Source: Paracoccaceae bacterium (GTDB lineage: Bacteria; Pseudomonadota; Alphaproteobacteria; Rhodobacterales; Rhodobacteraceae). Taken from it: a stretch of DNA of 64,000 bases. The DNA lies in the NCBI GenBank assembly GCA_016744015.1, contig JADGFD010000001.1:310001-374000 (forward strand), read 5' to 3'. The notes beneath the pieces are model-generated. The model saw only the letters and a program-made list of their open reading frames with translations. It was not told the DNA's origin and did no database searches. Below are positions 4,205 to 56,300 of the stretch, in pieces (position 1 is the first letter of the stretch; every line of letters begins with the position of its first letter). The position numbers and the translations under genes are program-made.

Positions 4205-4292
4205 CTGCCGAGCGTAGCGAGGCCTGGGCCGTCGGCAAGCGCCGTTCAGCTTGCTGAAAAGGTGCCTTTGGCAAAACGGGGGGCTGGAAATG
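4205..4292 (+). repeat. Dispersed structured repeat, copy a (truncated)
   Basis: The copy contains the CCGAGCGTAGCGAGGCC core, then TTCAGCTTGCTGAAAA, then the left arm TGCCTTTGGC of the long hairpin. The matching right arm is degenerate and the copy ends at the rlmB stop codon. A small TCGGC/GCCGA hairpin precedes it. The rest of the gap from 3955 to 4204 holds no gene or other structure that I can recognise. Confidence 0.7.
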
Positions 4293-5096
4293 CTAAAACG
4301 ATTGCTTCCAGCTGCTCGCGGCATAAAGTGATACGGCCCCGGCATTGGAAACATTGAGCGATCCAAATTCACCGGCAAAAGGGATTTTGGCAACCCTGTG
4401 GCAGGTTTTTTTGGTCAGCTCCCGCAGCCCCGGCCCTTCGGAGCCAAGCGCAAGTGCCAGTGGCACGTTGGGCAGGTCGGCCATTGCGGCTGTGAGTGTC
4501 ATATCGGCCTCGCCATCAAGCCCGATAATAAAATACCCCATTTCGCGCAGGGCATTCATGGATTTGGCCAGATTTGGCACCCGCATATAGGGCTGACGCT
4601 CCAGCGCCCCCGAGGCGGTTTTGGCCAGTGCCCCGGTTTCTGGTGCCGAGTGGCGGTGCGGGGCGATGACGGCACGGGCCCCAAACACTTCGGCGCTTCG
4701 CAGAATCGCCCCCACATTATGCGGGTCTGACACACGGTCCAGCAGCACCAGCAAAGGAGCTTCGTCATGGGGCGCGCATAGCTCGGACACCGAGCCCCAG
4801 TTGAGCGGGCGGACTTCCAGCACGGCCCCTTGGTGCACCGATTGCGCATCAATCGGGGGTTTGAAATTGCGGGGGTCCACGACTTCCGGCTCAATACCGC
4901 CCGCCGCTATGGCCTCGCCCAGCCTGTCAGCCGCGTTTTTTGTCACCATCAGCTTCAGCTTTTCCCGCTTGGGGTTCATCAAGGCATCGCGCACGGCGTG
5001 AATACCAAACAACCAAAAGGTCTCGGCAGCATCGCCCCTTTTGGCACGCTCTTTTTCAACAATCCATTCGGGCTTTTTGTGTTTGCGCGGGGCCAT
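4293..5096 (-). CDS. rlmB: 23S rRNA (guanosine-2'-O)-methyltransferase, TrmH/RlmB family
   Basis: A SpoU/TrmH-type SAM-dependent 2'-O-ribose methyltransferase of 267 residues. The substrate-binding N-terminal domain begins 'FWLFGIHAVRDALMNP'. The catalytic knotted domain carries motif 1 'DRVSDPHNVGAILRSAEVFG', motif 2 'LALGSEGPGLREL' and motif 3 'FGSLNVSNAGAVSLY'. RlmB methylates G2251 of 23S rRNA, and a tRNA methyltransferase role cannot be fully excluded. I chose the ATG at 5096 because AAAGGA lies just upstream and the basic 'MAPRKHKKPEW' opening fits the family; the longer open frame upstream is low-quality sequence. It is divergent from the FG-GAP gene. Confidence 0.9.
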   Translation of the reverse strand: MAPRKHKKPEWIVEKERAKRGDAAETFWLFGIHAVRDALMNPKREKLKLMVTKNAADRLGEAIAAGGIEPEVVDPRNFKPPIDAQSVHQGAVLEVRPLNWGSVSELCAPHDEAPLLVLLDRVSDPHNVGAILRSAEVFGARAVIAPHRHSAPETGALAKTASGALERQPYMRVPNLAKSMNALREMGYFIIGLDGEADMTLTAAMADLPNVPLALALGSEGPGLRELTKKTCHRVAKIPFAGEFGSLNVSNAGAVSLYAASSWKQSF

Positions 5097-10994: not shown

Positions 10995-11100
10995 GCACCG
11001 AGCATCGTGAGGCTACGGCCAGCGGCAGGCGTTTTTCAGCTTGCTGGAAAATGTGCTTTTGTCGAGTGGGGCTTTAGCCCCGCAGAGACAAAAGCAAGCT
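10995..11100 (+). repeat. Dispersed structured repeat, copy b
   Basis: This is a complete copy. It has the core CCGAGCATCGTGAGG (diverged), the TTTTTCAGCTTGCTGGAAAA hairpin, and a long hairpin with arms TGCTTTTGTC (11054-11063) and GACAAAAGCA (11087-11096) around an inner GGGGCTTTAGCCCC. It starts nine bases after the aminotransferase stop codon. Confidence 0.75.
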
Positions 11101-11150: not shown

Positions 11151-11222
11151 AGCAATTTGTATGCAAAATTGCGCTTTAAAGTCGCCAGCAATTTGTATGC
11201 AAAATTGCGCTTTAAAGTCGCC
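11151..11222 (+). repeat. Tandem duplication of a 36-bp palindromic unit
   Basis: Two identical 36-bp units lie at 11151-11186 and 11187-11222. Each contains GCAATTT-GTATGC-AAAATTGC, an inverted repeat. A homologous single unit in inverse orientation occurs inside repeat copy d near 30660-30695, with 8 differences in 36 that partly preserve the pairing. The tandem sits in, and disrupts, the reading frame of the hydratase remnant at 11224-11398. The stretch 11399-11661 shows no gene that I can support. Confidence 0.8.
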
Positions 11223-11223
11223 C

Positions 11224-11398
11224 CCTCGTCAGCGCGTGCGGCGCCTTCGCCTTGAAAGCGGGCGTTTTCATCGGGGAACACAGGGTTACCAAAGCTAAGG
11301 TTAACCGTGCCGGTCTTGCCAGCCGCATAGGCGGGCAGGCGGTAATGGCCAGCTTTCGGGGAGGGTAATGTCCGGACTTTATCGCCTAGTTGAAGAGG
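11224..11398 (-). pseudogene. Nitrile hydratase beta-subunit remnant
   Basis: On the minus strand the frame reads 'LGDKVRTL', 'KAGHYRLPAYAAGKTGTV' and 'FGNPVFPDENARFQGEG', matching the C-terminal SH3-like domain of nitrile hydratase (or thiocyanate hydrolase) beta subunits, whose usual pattern is 'VGD.VR......GHTRLP.Y.RG..G.V......VFPD.NA...GE'. A stop codon lies immediately before it, no start or N-terminal domain is present, and the C-terminal end runs into the tandem 36-bp repeats. It is a fragment of a once longer gene. The assignment is by motif memory. Confidence 0.65.
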
Positions 11399-13088: not shown

Positions 13089-14306
13089 ATGCTCGATATT
13101 AGTTTCATCCGCGCCCAGTTTCCAGCCTTTACCGAGGCCCCGCTGCAAGGGCAGGCGTTTTTTGAGAATGCCGGCGGGAGCTATACCTGCGGACCGGTGA
13201 TAGACCGGCTCACGCGGTATTATAAGCAGCGCAAGGTGCAGCCATACTATCCGTTTGAGGCCAGCCGATTGGCCGGCGAGGAAATGGATGAGGCGCGGGT
13301 GCGGCTTTCGGCGGTGCTGAATATTAAGGCGGATGAGTTGAGCTTTGGGCCGTCAACAACGCAAAACACCTATGTTTTGGCGCAGGCGTTTGGGCAAATG
13401 CTCAGCGAGGGTGACGCGATTATTGTGACCAACCAAGACCATGAAGCCAATACCGGCCCATGGCGGCGGCTGGAAGCCCGCGGCATTGAGGTGCGGGAAT
13501 GGCAGGTGAATGAGGTGGGGCATTTGGACCCGTCGGCCCTATCGGCGATGCTGGATGATAAGGTGAAACTGGTGTGCTTTCCTCATGTTTCTAACCTTGT
13601 GGGAGAGATTAACCCCGTGGCGGAGATATGTGAAATGATCCGCGCGGCGGGGGCCTATTCTTGCGTAGATGGTGTGAGTGCGGCGCCCCATGGGCTGCCA
13701 GATGTGGGCGGGCTCGGGGCAGATATATACCTGTTTTCGGCTTATAAAACCTATGGCCCGCATCAGGGCATTATGGCGATAAAGCGCGCGCTGGCGGATG
13801 CGCTGCCAAACCAAGGCCACTATTTTAACGAGGCCGTTCGTTATAAGCGCTTTACCCCCGCTGGGCCGGACCACGCACAGGTGGCAGCCTGCGCGGGCAT
13901 GGTGGATTATCTTGATGCTGTGTATGCGCACCATTTTGGAGTTGAGCCGGATGCCGCTGCGCGAGGCAGGGCTGTGCACAGCTTAAGTCTCACACACGAG
14001 CGCCGTTTGCTGGCGCCGCTGATAGATTATTTGCGCGGGCGAAATGATGTGCGGCTGCTGGGGCCACAAAGCGCCGAAGGGCGGGTGGCCACTGTTTCTG
14101 TGGTTGCCAACCGGCCCGGCTATGAGCTGGCGCAAGCCTTGGTGCCTGAGGGGATTATGGCGGGGGGTGGTGATTTTTATGCGGTGCGGCTGCTGGAAAC
14201 GCTGGGGATTGCGCCCGAACACGGCGCGCTAAGGCTGAGCTTTGTGCACTATACGCATGAGGATGAAGTGCAAAAGCTGATTGGGGCGCTGGATAAGGTT
14301 TTATAG
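13089..14306 (+). CDS. Class V aminotransferase, cysteine desulfurase-like
   Basis: A 405-residue PLP enzyme related to selenocysteine lyase/cysteine desulfurases (NifS-like group of the class V family). It opens 'MLDISFIRAQFPAF' and has 'FFENAGGSY', where desulfurases have 'YLDNAAT'. The PLP lysine is in 'YLFSAYKTYGPHQG', and 'AYSCVDGVSAAPHG' supplies the Asp. No clear C-terminal catalytic Cys loop is seen, so an aminotransferase or lyase role other than sulfur release is possible. TCAGGA precedes the ATG. It is divergent from the sulfur transporter and stands upstream of a repeat block. Confidence 0.8.
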   Translation: MLDISFIRAQFPAFTEAPLQGQAFFENAGGSYTCGPVIDRLTRYYKQRKVQPYYPFEASRLAGEEMDEARVRLSAVLNIKADELSFGPSTTQNTYVLAQAFGQMLSEGDAIIVTNQDHEANTGPWRRLEARGIEVREWQVNEVGHLDPSALSAMLDDKVKLVCFPHVSNLVGEINPVAEICEMIRAAGAYSCVDGVSAAPHGLPDVGGLGADIYLFSAYKTYGPHQGIMAIKRALADALPNQGHYFNEAVRYKRFTPAGPDHAQVAACAGMVDYLDAVYAHHFGVEPDAAARGRAVHSLSLTHERRLLAPLIDYLRGRNDVRLLGPQSAEGRVATVSVVANRPGYELAQALVPEGIMAGGGDFYAVRLLETLGIAPEHGALRLSFVHYTHEDEVQKLIGALDKVL

Positions 14307-14333
14307 CCCGATTAAGCGCTGCCCCTTCATTTT

Positions 14334-14460
14334 CCGGTGCTACGCACCGGACCGCGCCTCGCCTTCGGCTCGGCAGCGGCGCGTCAACCCTTGCGCGTTT
14401 GGCGAGTTTTTGCCCGCGCCGCGCTGCGAGCTCAGCGCTTGTGGCGGGTGCTGAAAGGTG
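14334..14460. repeat. Palindromic intergenic repeats, copy f
   Basis: CCGGTGC-TAC-GCACCGG (14334-14350) is a perfect hairpin. Next comes the dispersed core in reverse orientation (GCCTCGCCTTCGGCTCGGC, i.e. CCGAGCCGAAGGCGAGGC on the minus strand). AGCGCTTGTGGCG at about 14434-14446 is shared with the inverted repeat at 22740. The bases between this block and copy c show no gene. Confidence 0.55.
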
Positions 14461-14605
14461 CAGCTTTGATAGGCAGGCGGTTTAACGATGGCTGGTTATA
14501 TTAACAGCATTTAGCCGCGAAATACCTTTTCAGGTGCGACAAGAGGCTCGTTCGTTTCAGTGCGGCGCGGGCGGAATCTCGCCATGCAATGCCAACCTCA
14601 ACGCG

Positions 14606-14715
14606 CCGCCACCGAGCGCAGCGAGGCCACGGCCGGCGGCAACCCGTGTTTTCAGCTTGCTGACAACCGTGCCTTGGCCAAGGGGGGCTTTAGCTCCCCG
14701 CAGCCAAGGCAGGCT
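14606..14715 (+). repeat. Dispersed structured repeat, copy c
   Basis: Core CCGAGCGCAGCGAGGCCACGG, then TTTTCAGCTTGCTGACAA, then a long hairpin with arms TGCCTTGGC (14670-14678) and GCCAAGGCA (14703-14711) around GGGGGGCTTTAGCTCCCC. The arms differ in sequence from copies b and d, yet remain perfectly complementary. Confidence 0.75.
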
Positions 14716-14764
14716 CGGCGGGTAGCTATGTGCAAACGCAAATTTTTAGATCTAGGCCCTGCTG

Positions 14765-15100
14765 TCAGCCCTTGCGGTGAGCCCATAATATGGGCGCGGC
14801 GGCTATAAACAGCAGTTTCAACCCAAAGATGGCGTAGCCTTGGCCTTCGCTAACGGTAATGGATCCATAGCCCAAATAGGCGCCCCATGCTGCCAGCACG
14901 GCTACGTTAATAATGAGGGCACGTTTTGAGGTGCTAAAAGGGGTGGCAACGATGTTTTGCAGGGAAAATACGGTAACGCCGCCAACAAGCAGCATCGCAA
15001 CGTCAAAATCAACATAGGTCCCTTGCCCATTGAAGATAACGCCTAATATTCCATCCCAATAATGATAGGCAAACCAGACGGTGGCCAAAACTAAGGACAC
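14765..15100 (-). CDS. Hypothetical small membrane protein
   Basis: At least 111 residues with three to four hydrophobic segments ('LVLATVWFAYHYW', 'VDFDVAMLLVGGVTVFSL', 'ALIINVAVLAAWGAYLGY', 'IFGLKLLFIAAAPILW'). I do not recognise a family. The start is uncertain: the first canonical codon is a GTG at 15100, but the frame is open, with a sensible hydrophobic lead ('LQKIWQPFCVSLVLA'), back to the stop codon of the upstream DUF6134 gene. An ATT at 15139 directly after that stop is the only earlier initiator-like codon. The two genes are therefore probably co-transcribed and translationally coupled. Confidence 0.55.
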   Translation of the reverse strand: MSLVLATVWFAYHYWDGILGVIFNGQGTYVDFDVAMLLVGGVTVFSLQNIVATPFSTSKRALIINVAVLAAWGAYLGYGSITVSEGQGYAIFGLKLLFIAAAPILWAHRKG

Positions 15101-15139
15101 ACAGAAGGGTTGCCATATCTTTTGAAGGGCAGTCTCAAT

Positions 15140-29106: not shown

Positions 29107-30483
29107 CTAAAAATGGATGGCGCGGCCATAGGCGTCGAGCACACTTTCATGCATCATCTCAGACAGCGTAGGGTGTGGGAAAACCGTGTGAAACAGGTCT
29201 TCCTCAGTGGTTTCCAACTGCCGCCCGATCACATAGCCCTGAATGAGTTCTGTCACCTCAGCTCCCACCATATGCGCGCCCAAAAGCTCGCCGGTTTTGG
29301 CGTCAAAAATGGTTTTCACCAAGCCCTCCGCCTCGCCCAAAGCAATGGCTTTGCCGTTGCCCATAAAGGGGAACCGGCCCACCTTTATGTCCAGCCCTGC
29401 CTCTTTCGCTTTTGCCTCCGTCATCCCCACGCTCGCCACCTGCGGCTGGCAATAGGTGCAGCCGGCAATGCTTTCCGGCTTCACCGGATGCACCTTTTGG
29501 CCCGCAATCTTCTCGGCCACCATCACCCCTTCATGGCTGGCTTTGTGCGCAAGCCACGGAGCCCCCGCGATATCACCAATCGCATAAATTCCTGGGATTT
29601 TGGTGGCACAGTATTCATTGGTCACAATATGGGTTCGGTCAATTTCCAGCCCCAAGGCCTCCAGCCCTAACCCCTCGGTATTGCCAATAATCCCGACTGC
29701 CGAAATGACGGTGTCAAATTCCTCAGCAATCGTCTTTCCACCAGTCTCAATATGAGCCGTGACCTTGCCTTGGCCACGGTCCAGTTTCTTAACCATGGAT
29801 TTCTCCATAACCTTCATGCCCTGCTTTAGGAATTGCTTCTTGGCAAAACCCGCAATTTCGGCGTCTTCCACTGGCAGCACGCGGTCCATAACCTCAACCA
29901 CGGTTGTGTCGGCCCCCAGCGTGTTAAAAAAGCTGGCAAATTCAATGCCAATGGCGCCAGAGCCTATAACAAGCAGCTTTTTGGGCATTCGCACAGGGTC
30001 AAGCGCGTGCCGATAGGTCCAAACCAAGTCACCATCCGCCTCCAGCCCCGGGAGTTCTCGCGCCCGCGCGCCCGTTGCAATAACAATGTTTTTGCCAGTA
30101 AGCGTATCCTTACCAACCTTAACCTGCCCAGCGGCGGGAATGCTGGCTTCGCCCATAATGACATCAACTTTATTCTTTTTAAGCAAGTGTTTTACGCCCG
30201 CAGATAGCTGAGACGCCACCCCGCGAGACCGCTTCACAACGGCCTTCAGGTCATAAGAAATCGCATCCGCCTTCAGGCCAAATTCCCCCGCGCGCTGCAT
30301 CAGGTGAAACACTTCTGCCGAGCGCAAAAGCGCCTTTGTAGGAATGCAGCCCCAGTTGAGGCAAATGCCCCCCAAATGCTCCCGCTCAACAATGGCTACT
30401 TTCAGGCCAAGCTGCGCACCACGAATGGCCGCCACATAGCCGCCCGGGCCAGCGCCGATAACGATAAGATCATAAGTAGGCAT
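29107..30483 (-). CDS. lpdA: Dihydrolipoyl dehydrogenase (E3)
   Basis: A 458-residue FAD-disulfide oxidoreductase that reoxidises dihydrolipoamide in 2-oxoacid dehydrogenase or glycine-cleavage complexes, passing electrons to NAD. FAD-binding 'DLIVIGAGPGGYVAAIRGAQ', redox pair 'GGICLNWGCIPTKALL' (C-x4-C), NAD-binding 'LLVIGSGAIGIEFASFF', second FAD motif 'GIYAIGDIAGAPWLAHKAS', and the active-site His-Glu in 'FHTVFPHPTLSEMM' are all present. The start is set at 30483, because the 15 codons upstream are not family-like. No E1 or E2 gene is in the window. Mobile DNA begins directly after its stop codon. Confidence 0.93.
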   Translation of the reverse strand: MPTYDLIVIGAGPGGYVAAIRGAQLGLKVAIVEREHLGGICLNWGCIPTKALLRSAEVFHLMQRAGEFGLKADAISYDLKAVVKRSRGVASQLSAGVKHLLKKNKVDVIMGEASIPAAGQVKVGKDTLTGKNIVIATGARARELPGLEADGDLVWTYRHALDPVRMPKKLLVIGSGAIGIEFASFFNTLGADTTVVEVMDRVLPVEDAEIAGFAKKQFLKQGMKVMEKSMVKKLDRGQGKVTAHIETGGKTIAEEFDTVISAVGIIGNTEGLGLEALGLEIDRTHIVTNEYCATKIPGIYAIGDIAGAPWLAHKASHEGVMVAEKIAGQKVHPVKPESIAGCTYCQPQVASVGMTEAKAKEAGLDIKVGRFPFMGNGKAIALGEAEGLVKTIFDAKTGELLGAHMVGAEVTELIQGYVIGRQLETTEEDLFHTVFPHPTLSEMMHESVLDAYGRAIHF

Positions 30484-30570
30484 GGAAAATCCCTTCACAA
30501 TTGCTCGCCTGCGACAATAGCGCACCACGCCGCAGGTGCAAGGGGGGCAAATGCATGGCAGTTATGCACA

Positions 30571-30715
30571 ATGCGCGCCGAGCGAAGCGAGGCCACGGCC
30601 AGCGGCAGGCATTTTCAGCTTGCTGAAAATGTGCTTTTCCCGAGTGGGGTGGTTTTATCGCGCAGTTTTGCGCACAAACTGCTGTGGTAGCTCCGCAGAG
30701 GGAAAAGCAAGCCCG
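30571..30715 (+). repeat. Dispersed structured repeat, copy d (with inserted unit)
   Basis: Core CCGAGCGAAGCGAGGCCACGG, perfect hairpin ATTTTCAGC-TT-GCTGAAAAT, then a long hairpin with arms TGCTTTTCCC (30632-30641) and GGGAAAAGCA (30700-30709). The loop holds a 36-bp palindromic unit (GCAGTTTTGCGCACAAACTGC is split by its own symmetry) homologous, in inverse orientation, to the tandem at 11151. The gap 30484-30826 holds only this copy and copy h. Confidence 0.75.
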
Positions 30716-30797
30716 TTGGAAATGCACATAATCCCTAAGCAAGCAAGGAACCCTCCGTCAGAATTGCTTTTGCTACGCAAAAACATTCCTAACGTTT

Positions 30798-30826
30798 GGG
30801 CGGTGGCCTCGCTACGCTCGGCGGTT
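30798..30826 (-). repeat. Dispersed repeat core, copy h (reverse orientation)
   Basis: Minus strand: CCGCCGAGCGTAGCGAGGCC followed by ACCGCC, the same core as copy d but in inverse orientation, ending at the sufS stop codon. Copies d and h therefore face each other across about 80 bp. Confidence 0.6.
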
Positions 30827-32047
30827 CTAGCCAAAAAGCTCGTGGCAAAGCTCCAACGCTTCCACCAGCTTATCAACCTCTTCCACCGTGTTATATAATC
30901 CAAAACTGGCGCGGCACGTCGCCGAAACGCCCAAATGCTGCATCAGCGGCTGGGCGCAGTGGTGCCCTGCCCGCACGGCTATGCCTTTCTGGTCAACGAT
31001 TGTTGAAATATCATGCGGGTGCGCCCCCCCCGCCATTGTAAAGCTAAAAATGGCGCCTTTTCCAGCGGCGTTGCCCTGAATATTTAGCCAGTTCAGCCCG
31101 CTCAATTTCTCGTCGGCATAGGCTTTTAGCTTGGCCTCATGGGCGGCGATGTTTTTCATCCCGAGCCCCATCATATAATCCAGCGCCACCCCAAAGCCAA
31201 TCATCTGCACAATGCCTGGCGTGCCGGCTTCAAACTTGTGCGGCGGCACGTTATAGCTCACAGCATCGCGCGTTACGTCGGCAATCATATCGCCGCCCCC
31301 CATAAAGGGGCGCATCTCGTCCATGCGCTCTTTGCGGATAAATATCGCGCCCGAGGCCGAAGGGCCATAAAGCTTATGGCCGGTAATCGCATAGAAATCG
31401 CAGCCAATATCGGCCACATCTACGGGCATATGCACCGTGGCCTGAGAGCCATCAATGCAAGTGGCAATGCCGCGCGTGCGGGCCTCTTGGCAGATGGTTT
31501 TTACATCCACCACCGTGCCTAGCACGTTAGACATATGGGTGATTGCAATCAGCTTGGTTTTATCACTAATCGCATCAATCACACTTTCCGCGCTTAAGGA
31601 TCCATCCGACGCAGGCTCAACCCATTTCAGCACCACACCATAACGCTCACGCAAAAAGTGCCACGGCACAATATTGGCGTGGTGTTCCATCACTGAAAGC
31701 AAAATCTCGTCGCCCGCCTTCAGGTTTTCCACGCCCCAGCCATATGAAACCAGATTCAGCCCGTGGGTAGAGCCGGTGGTAAATAGCACTTCTTCCTCAG
31801 AAGGCGCGTTTAAAAACCGCTTGATGGTGCCGCGAACGGCCTCGTATTTGTCAGTCGCCAAATTGCTTAAAAAATGCAGCCCACGATGCACATTGGCATA
31901 TTCCTCAGCATAGCCCTTGGTGACCGCATCAATTACAGCCTGTGGTTTTTGCGAAGACGCGCCATTGTCAAGGTAAACCAAAGGTTTACCGTTCACTTGG
32001 CGCGCCAAAATAGGGAAATCCTTCCGGATTTCGTTAACACTATACAT
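30827..32047 (-). CDS. sufS: Cysteine desulfurase SufS
   Basis: A 406-residue class V PLP enzyme that takes sulfur from cysteine for Fe-S cluster assembly. PLP Lys225 is in 'YAITGHKLYGPSASG'; the catalytic Cys378 is in 'SATCRASFGLYNT', as in group II desulfurases. 'YLDNGASSQKP' and 'RAGHHCAQPLM' are further family marks. It is the last gene of the iscR-suf operon, 12 bp behind a YIP1-domain gene. No sufE or sufA gene is near, so its sulfur acceptor is encoded elsewhere or sulfur passes directly to SufBCD. Confidence 0.94.
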   Translation of the reverse strand: MYSVNEIRKDFPILARQVNGKPLVYLDNGASSQKPQAVIDAVTKGYAEEYANVHRGLHFLSNLATDKYEAVRGTIKRFLNAPSEEEVLFTTGSTHGLNLVSYGWGVENLKAGDEILLSVMEHHANIVPWHFLRERYGVVLKWVEPASDGSLSAESVIDAISDKTKLIAITHMSNVLGTVVDVKTICQEARTRGIATCIDGSQATVHMPVDVADIGCDFYAITGHKLYGPSASGAIFIRKERMDEMRPFMGGGDMIADVTRDAVSYNVPPHKFEAGTPGIVQMIGFGVALDYMMGLGMKNIAAHEAKLKAYADEKLSGLNWLNIQGNAAGKGAIFSFTMAGGAHPHDISTIVDQKGIAVRAGHHCAQPLMQHLGVSATCRASFGLYNTVEEVDKLVEALELCHELFG

Positions 32048-56181: not shown

Positions 56182-56300
56182 TTTCCGGTTCAGTTGAATT
56201 TCAATTCACTGTCTTTCGCTGCGCTCAAACGCAAATTGAAATGAGCCTATTTTTTGAGAACCGGAAAACGTGGTCGCCGAGCCGCAGGCGAGGCCACGCC
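56182..56300 (+). repeat. Nested inverted repeat plus dispersed core, copy g
   Basis: TTTCCGGTTC (56182-56191) and GAACCGGAAA (56258-56267) are perfect complements. Inside them ATTTCAATT (56198-56206) pairs with AATTGAAAT (56234-56242). The core CCGAGCCGCAGGCGAGGCCACG follows (from about 56278), with an extra C-G pair compared with copies a, c and d. A GGGGCAAAGCCCC hairpin stands just before it (about 56160-56172). The rest of the gap 56020-56325 is empty. Confidence 0.7.

Follow-up and report, generated by a model that had tools for sequence, protein, structure and literature searches.

The intergenic region between lpd (29107-30528) and sufS (30827-32047), both on the minus strand, harbours a composite repeat element of 244 bp at positions 30578-30821 of the window, a 64,000-nucleotide stretch of DNA (G000:C11:310001-374000) from a genome of 3.14 Mb in 52 contigs. 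This element, designated d and read on the plus strand, consists of two inward-facing halves with inverted cores at the ends, and under RNA parameters it is predicted to adopt a single closed multi-hairpin fold of -120.2 kcal/mol. Its left half opens with a 5' core, CCGAGCGAAGCGAGG (30578-30592, plus strand), built from CC/GG and GC/GC pairs, tandem G.A and a GAA loop. The short hairpin H2 follows (CATTTTCAGC-TT-GCTGAAAATG, 30610-30631, plus; helix 2 of the 94-copy alignment described below), and then the long hairpin H3 (30632-30709, plus), where a GA/AGA internal loop (30642-30643 and 30697-30699) separates the outer arms (30632-30641 and 30700-30709) from an inner helix (30644-30649 and 30691-30696). 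The loop of H3 carries an insert of about 40 nt, itself a hairpin (GCAGTTTTGCGCACAAACTGC, 30650-30690, plus). Inner parts of the element also come and go: the insert is missing from the G004 ortholog, which has a simple CTTTAG loop, and related hairpins recur in further copies and, in tandem, at 11152-11224. The right half lies on the minus strand as a separate module of core, GCCCAA, GTA-loop hairpin and GGAGGG; the hairpin, recognised from its sequence (TTTTGCGTAGCAAAA, 30768-30782), has its GTA loop on the minus-strand reading, and the inverted core is CCGAGCGTAGCGAGG (30807-30821). The same succession of core, GCCCAA, hairpin and GGAGGG stands behind many single cores, and other genera have a similar module behind their cores. 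The earlier note had located copy d correctly but placed its end at 30715 (30571-30715), short of the inverted partner core, and so missed that the unit is a two-sided 244-bp composite.

Three other copies, a to c, lie on the plus strand of the window. A covariance model (R1), seeded with other copies of the same genome and with a-d left out, recovered all four where the earlier note had placed them: copies b (10995-11096; 109 bits, E = 3.6e-22) and c (14609-14711; 86.3 bits, E = 3.4e-17), each with core, H2 and H3, the degraded copy a (4205-4300; 43.9 bits, E = 6.1e-08), described as truncated, and d itself (E = 7.3e-18). The order of core, short hairpin and long hairpin proposed for b, c and d was borne out; in an alignment of the copies these three parts are conserved in the left half, with alternative 3' modules behind them. 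The arms are as quoted there, but b (GCTGGAAAA) and c (GCTGACAA) have imperfect short hairpins. Copy a adjoins the stop codon at 4293 of rlmB, a gene assigned by TIGR00186 above its cut-off, and additional 3' modules extend copy b to about 11250. Two additional cores complete the set, one with the variant stem CCGAGCCGAAGGCGAGG (14357-14373, minus), followed by a different hairpin module, and one (CCGAGCCGCAGGCGAGG, 56277-56293, plus) with a short GCCCAA..GCGGGAG module. Rfam returned only two tRNAs at the gathering threshold in the whole window; its best match over element d was RT-18, at 17.3 bits against a threshold of 41.3 and a sub-threshold E of 2.1, in agreement with the earlier statement that the element is not known as a named family.

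Further mosaic structures were noticed around these copies. A second hairpin repeat of about 37 nt (GCAATTTTGCATACAAATTGC) occurs in both orientations in many copies, either in a loop or in a 3' module, and acts like one nested inside other hairpins at their tips; it stands twice in tandem behind copy b (11152-11224) and recurs in the loci L242, L245, L246, L247, L249 and L254. A different mosaic unit at 14321-14454 combines a GCGGCGCG..CGCGCCGC stem, a minus-strand core and then GGTCCGGTGCGTAGCACCGG. This unit is amplified above all in the congener G011; which module has been amplified seems to vary between congeners. Copy c and a small ORF (14765-15100) fall within a variable island (14299-15133), where 834-838 bp lie between two conserved genes; in G005, G008 and G002 the corresponding interval measures 15 to 164 bp.

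The element is abundant beyond the window. A BLAST search with d gave 48 matches in its own genome, of which roughly 40 include the core and the short hairpin, and the claim of a dispersed intergenic element thus holds with about 40 further copies. Exact cores number 108 (66 of CCGAGCGNAGCGAGG and 42 of CCGAGNNGNANNCGAGG) with none for the reversed patterns, and the window alone holds four matches to the core pattern against 0.01 expected. These counts, which derive from genome searches, exclude chance. Pairs of cores within 400 bp are likewise in excess, with 15 observed against 1.4 expected, of which 7 face inward, 8 outward and none in the same direction; most cores are nonetheless single, not paired. 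The seven inward pairs have 229-266 bp between core starts and define units of 244-281 bp (247-281 bp for the six besides d). In several units the two ends are unlike in stem type and loop base (e.g. GCGCAGC with GGCGAAGCC), which indicates that each end keeps its own hairpin and is not conserved for pairing with the other. One outward pair, C44:218330 and C44:218608, holds the only two exact cores with a GGA loop in this genome; in all others the middle loop base is A, C or T.

The core forms a covarying hairpin of its own, with a GNA loop and tandem G.A, a point that had gone unnoticed in the earlier note. It can be written CCGA-stem-GNA-stem-GAGG, with a CC/GG pair, GA opposite GA, an inner stem of 2-3 pairs and a GNA triloop. 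The inner stem is a short GC/GC in 66 cores of the genome and longer in 42; when the stem bases were left free in the pattern, all 42 longer stems proved complementary (28 GGC/GCC, 14 GCC/GGC). Leaving the GA positions free gave GA/GA in 64 of 93 candidates and Watson-Crick NN/NN in only 5, and leaving the loop free gave GCA 27, GAA 22 and GTA 15 times (64 cases), every other triplet appearing once. The mismatches and the loop are therefore conserved, while changes in the stem are compensated.

The same holds for the larger helices. Across 94 distinct copies aligned to the model, standard pairs make up 96.4% of the pair cells, and double changes occur in 22 of 31 pairs; the covariation score reaches 0.370, compared with 0.139 for shuffled alignments and no more than 0.070 for slid controls, and none of 500 shuffles scored as high. 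By helix, pairing amounts to 94.4% of cells in H2 (double changes in 8 of 10 pairs), 97.4% in the outer helix of H3 (8 of 10) and 95.7% in its inner helix (5 of 7). The copies being related, the cells in all these counts are not independent events. Since that alignment was fitted to the model, counts were also made on a sequence-only MAFFT alignment of 24 copies: it gave 94.4% paired cells and a score of 0.284 against 0.129, surpassing all 500 shuffles and all slid controls in four of five measures, with 34 of 500 shuffles matching it in the fifth, the number of further pair types. The arms, in other words, still compensate across 94 sequences instead of drifting apart, as the earlier proposal of selection for pairing implies. 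That proposal had missed that the pairing signal is particular to one strand. Among non-Watson-Crick cells, G.T outnumbers A.C by 174 to 17 in the model alignment and by 54 to 10 in the sequence-only one, and the element strand has the more stable fold of the two in 76 of 94 copies under RNA parameters and in 84 of 94 under DNA parameters. The G.T excess and the difference in stability show that one particular strand is kept foldable, an asymmetry that fits RNA and single-stranded DNA equally well.

The two parts of the element differ greatly in their reach, the core being far more widespread than the long hairpin, which had also escaped the earlier note. The consensus module is present in 11 of 13 genomes of the genus, several with 34 to 41 matches, whereas the H2/H3 model found nothing convincing under strict filters in 198 other Rhodobacteraceae, with one weak match; on this search the long-hairpin module is confined to the genus. 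The core alone appears in 104 of the 397 genomes of the family. Most of these have one or a few, and single matches may be due to chance; four genomes have 40, 22, 17 and 14. Core-bearing relatives include the Rhodobacteraceae MAGs GLR160 and NORP78, a type of relative that we take to be marine, and in other Rhodobacteraceae the core is accompanied by other hairpin modules. Several of these genera (loci L214-L239) show a TTTCATCTTTCCAAAAATACTC-like motif some tens of bases upstream of the cores and, behind the core, a second GNA hairpin motif, CGACGCC-GCA-GGCGGCGCAA, which is in tandem in L236 and L237. The contigs of G363 carry all 14 of its cores on the forward strand, in contrast to the balanced counts elsewhere. 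Other alphaproteobacterial families contain up to 156, 66, 53 and 38 copies of the core; several genomes have it within inverted dimers that bear a TGTC-ATC tag and are spaced about 40 bp, and tag and AT accompany 17 of 27 cores from these families. The genome with 156 exact cores is G472 (C1), where many form GTGTCATCCCGAG..CTCGGGATGACAC dimers with that same spacing of about 40 bp. A search for relatives on plasmids gave no match, and viral contigs yielded at least 120 stretches with the exact core, near the number estimated by chance for so large a collection. The core sequence had only two matches in the open-access literature, both unrelated.

The presence of the element at orthologous sites varies from one congener to the next. 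The whole of d is present in G000 and G004, its site is empty in G001, G005, G008 and G009, and in G002 it is partly replaced, the right end being kept behind unrelated sequence; the empty sites may also reflect loss in those species. Around 57 copies with both neighbours called, the flanking genes are oriented (+,-) in 28 cases, (-,-) in 18, (+,+) in 9 and (-,+) in 2, with orthologous sites counted repeatedly and genes taken from simple longest-ORF calls. Divergent promoter regions are avoided. Where the neighbouring genes run in tandem, 18 of 27 copies have their folding strand antisense, an argument against a general role as a sense 3'-UTR RNA. Many copies begin 3-25 nt behind a stop codon. 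A TAG stop as insertion target was considered and set aside: the stops by cores comprise 25 TAG, 21 TAA and 7 TGA, against 36, 37 and 28% in the genome, which is suggestive only. The replication-strand bias in the genome is not significant (about 24 against 15-19).

How does the element relate to known repeat families? Its high copy number, extragenic position, asymmetric palindromes and mosaic inverted arrangement are shared with GTAG REPs and BIMEs, and palindromic units that alternate in orientation around structured spacers, as in BIMEs, are seen in the 7 inward and 8 outward pairs, though most cores are single. Unlike in the REPtrons, in which GTAG REPs accompany a RAYT, none of the RAYT or Y1 loci examined is flanked by the repeat, and the core is mostly preceded by CCCA, GCCA or ATAG, not by GTAG. 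The CGTC-tagged REPs are predominantly alphaproteobacterial, occur mostly as dimers between convergent or unidirectional ORFs and end in a CCA tail; their tag is often TGTC, with AT first in the stem (PMC3733652). The likeness to our element lies in the placement between convergent and unidirectional ORFs, in the CCA that follows the core in 56 of 85 copies, in the cores not flanking a tyrosine transposase (27 Y1_Tnp loci), and in the identical core inside TGTC-AT-tagged dimers of other alphaproteobacterial families, dimers which fit the published description of CGTC-type REPs (PMC3733652). However, an unpaired CGTC, TGTC or CCTC end tag was found within 10 nt upstream of the core in none of 85 copies, the outer stem extends only 0-2 bp beyond CC/GG, as opposed to 8-9 bp with A-T as the first two pairs, and large genus-specific hairpins stand behind the core. 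We do not file the copies as CGTC REPs because the tag and the outer stem are absent. With MITEs and ERIC-like or BOX-like repeats the element shares its non-coding, modular character, its length of 100-300 bp and its inverted ends, the inverted cores of the seven units corresponding to the terminal inverted repeats of MITEs; it differs in that its ends are separate GNA hairpins which do not covary with each other, and in that the seven full units show no consistent direct repeat, and hence no target-site duplication of constant length, at their ends. Neither is a target duplication visible in the empty-site comparison at d.

No transposase flanked by CGTC repeats was found by Di Nocera, De Gregorio and Rocco (2013; PMC3733652). 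Our survey of mobilisers, which covered Y1_Tnp (PF01797), detected the domain in 3 of the 13 genomes of the genus and in 39 of the 397 of the family; G004 lacks it despite at least 41 copies of the module, and a match is present in only 3 of the 13 family genomes that carry at least six cores. No core lies near any of the 27 Y1_Tnp loci inspected (7 from the genus, 20 from the family). A RAYT or Y1 transposase was accordingly rejected as a linked mobiliser, the loci being few, degraded or unflanked.

The observed element is real and genus-specific, a mosaic of REP/BIME type that covaries strongly and whose core reaches across alphaproteobacteria. The element is probably a non-autonomous repeat of this type, its single-stranded hairpins serving as a recognition signal. 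The hairpins would act as single strands exposed during replication or repair, and the core would be recognised by a putative enzyme copying or moving the element, which need not be encoded beside it; positions just behind stops and away from divergent promoters may simply be those where insertions are tolerated. GNA loops with sheared G.A pairs are exceptionally stable in DNA, and for this reason, together with the more frequent antisense placement of the folding strand in tandem contexts, we prefer folding of DNA to that of RNA. Counting against a mobile element of this type are the lack of a linked Y1_Tnp and of a clear target duplication, as well as the missing replication-strand bias, which an IS200/IS605-like route predicts. 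We also entertain, as an unlikely extension, that the GNA mini-hairpin with tandem sheared G.A is one signal common to the untagged Rhodobacteraceae elements and the TGTC-tagged REP dimers, all of them spread by one putative, unlinked enzyme acting on single-stranded DNA.

Could the folding be selected in RNA instead, as a cis element of transcripts or a small-RNA family? RNA often contains tandem G.A and tips resembling G(CUUG)C, and both the G.T excess and the greater stability of one strand fit a transcript. Many REPs have, moreover, been argued to be transcribed and to act as RNA (Di Nocera 2013; PMC3733652). Yet the orientation to genes is inconsistent, the 18 of 27 tandem pairs being antisense, both genes flanking d lie on the other strand, one transcript of a full unit would present only one of the opposed cores in its GA/GNA form, and Rfam has no such family, so that we judge a structured RNA rather unlikely. 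A more specific role between convergent genes, as a bidirectional transcription terminator or a stabiliser of mRNA 3' ends, would agree with nearly half of the contexts being convergent and with the many starts 3-25 nt past a stop codon. It appears very unlikely, given that L008, L014, L029 and L033 lie downstream of a separate terminator-like hairpin with T run, that d lacks a terminator-like site, and that the d site is empty in congeners.

Complementary arms need not reflect selection at all. Intrastrand template switching during replication corrects imperfect palindromes, and this known mechanism would yield matched double changes like those of H3. Such correction should, however, erase the tandem G.A, which persists as GA/GA in most core candidates (64 of 93, against 5 Watson-Crick), and it does not predict the preponderance of G.T over A.C; as the sole explanation it is highly improbable, although it may contribute alongside selection. 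If a DDE transposase recognised the terminal inverted cores and moved the element as an ordinary MITE, this would account for the inverted cores at both ends, the narrow length range of 244-281 bp, the non-coding sequence and the empty sites. Against this stand the ends, which mismatch each other where they vary while each keeps its own hairpin, the predominance of single cores and the target-site duplication that was not found, and we regard such a MITE as quite unlikely.

These repeats bear on two wider matters. The covariation seen here is a clean case, in a bacterial interspersed repeat, of a pattern that might wrongly be taken to prove an RNA gene. How alphaproteobacterial REPs without a transposase spread is a question left open in the literature (PMC3733652). 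The present family offers many diverged copies, filled and empty sites, a strict signal of sequence plus structure and a strand-specific record of covariation, which together make this signal directly testable.
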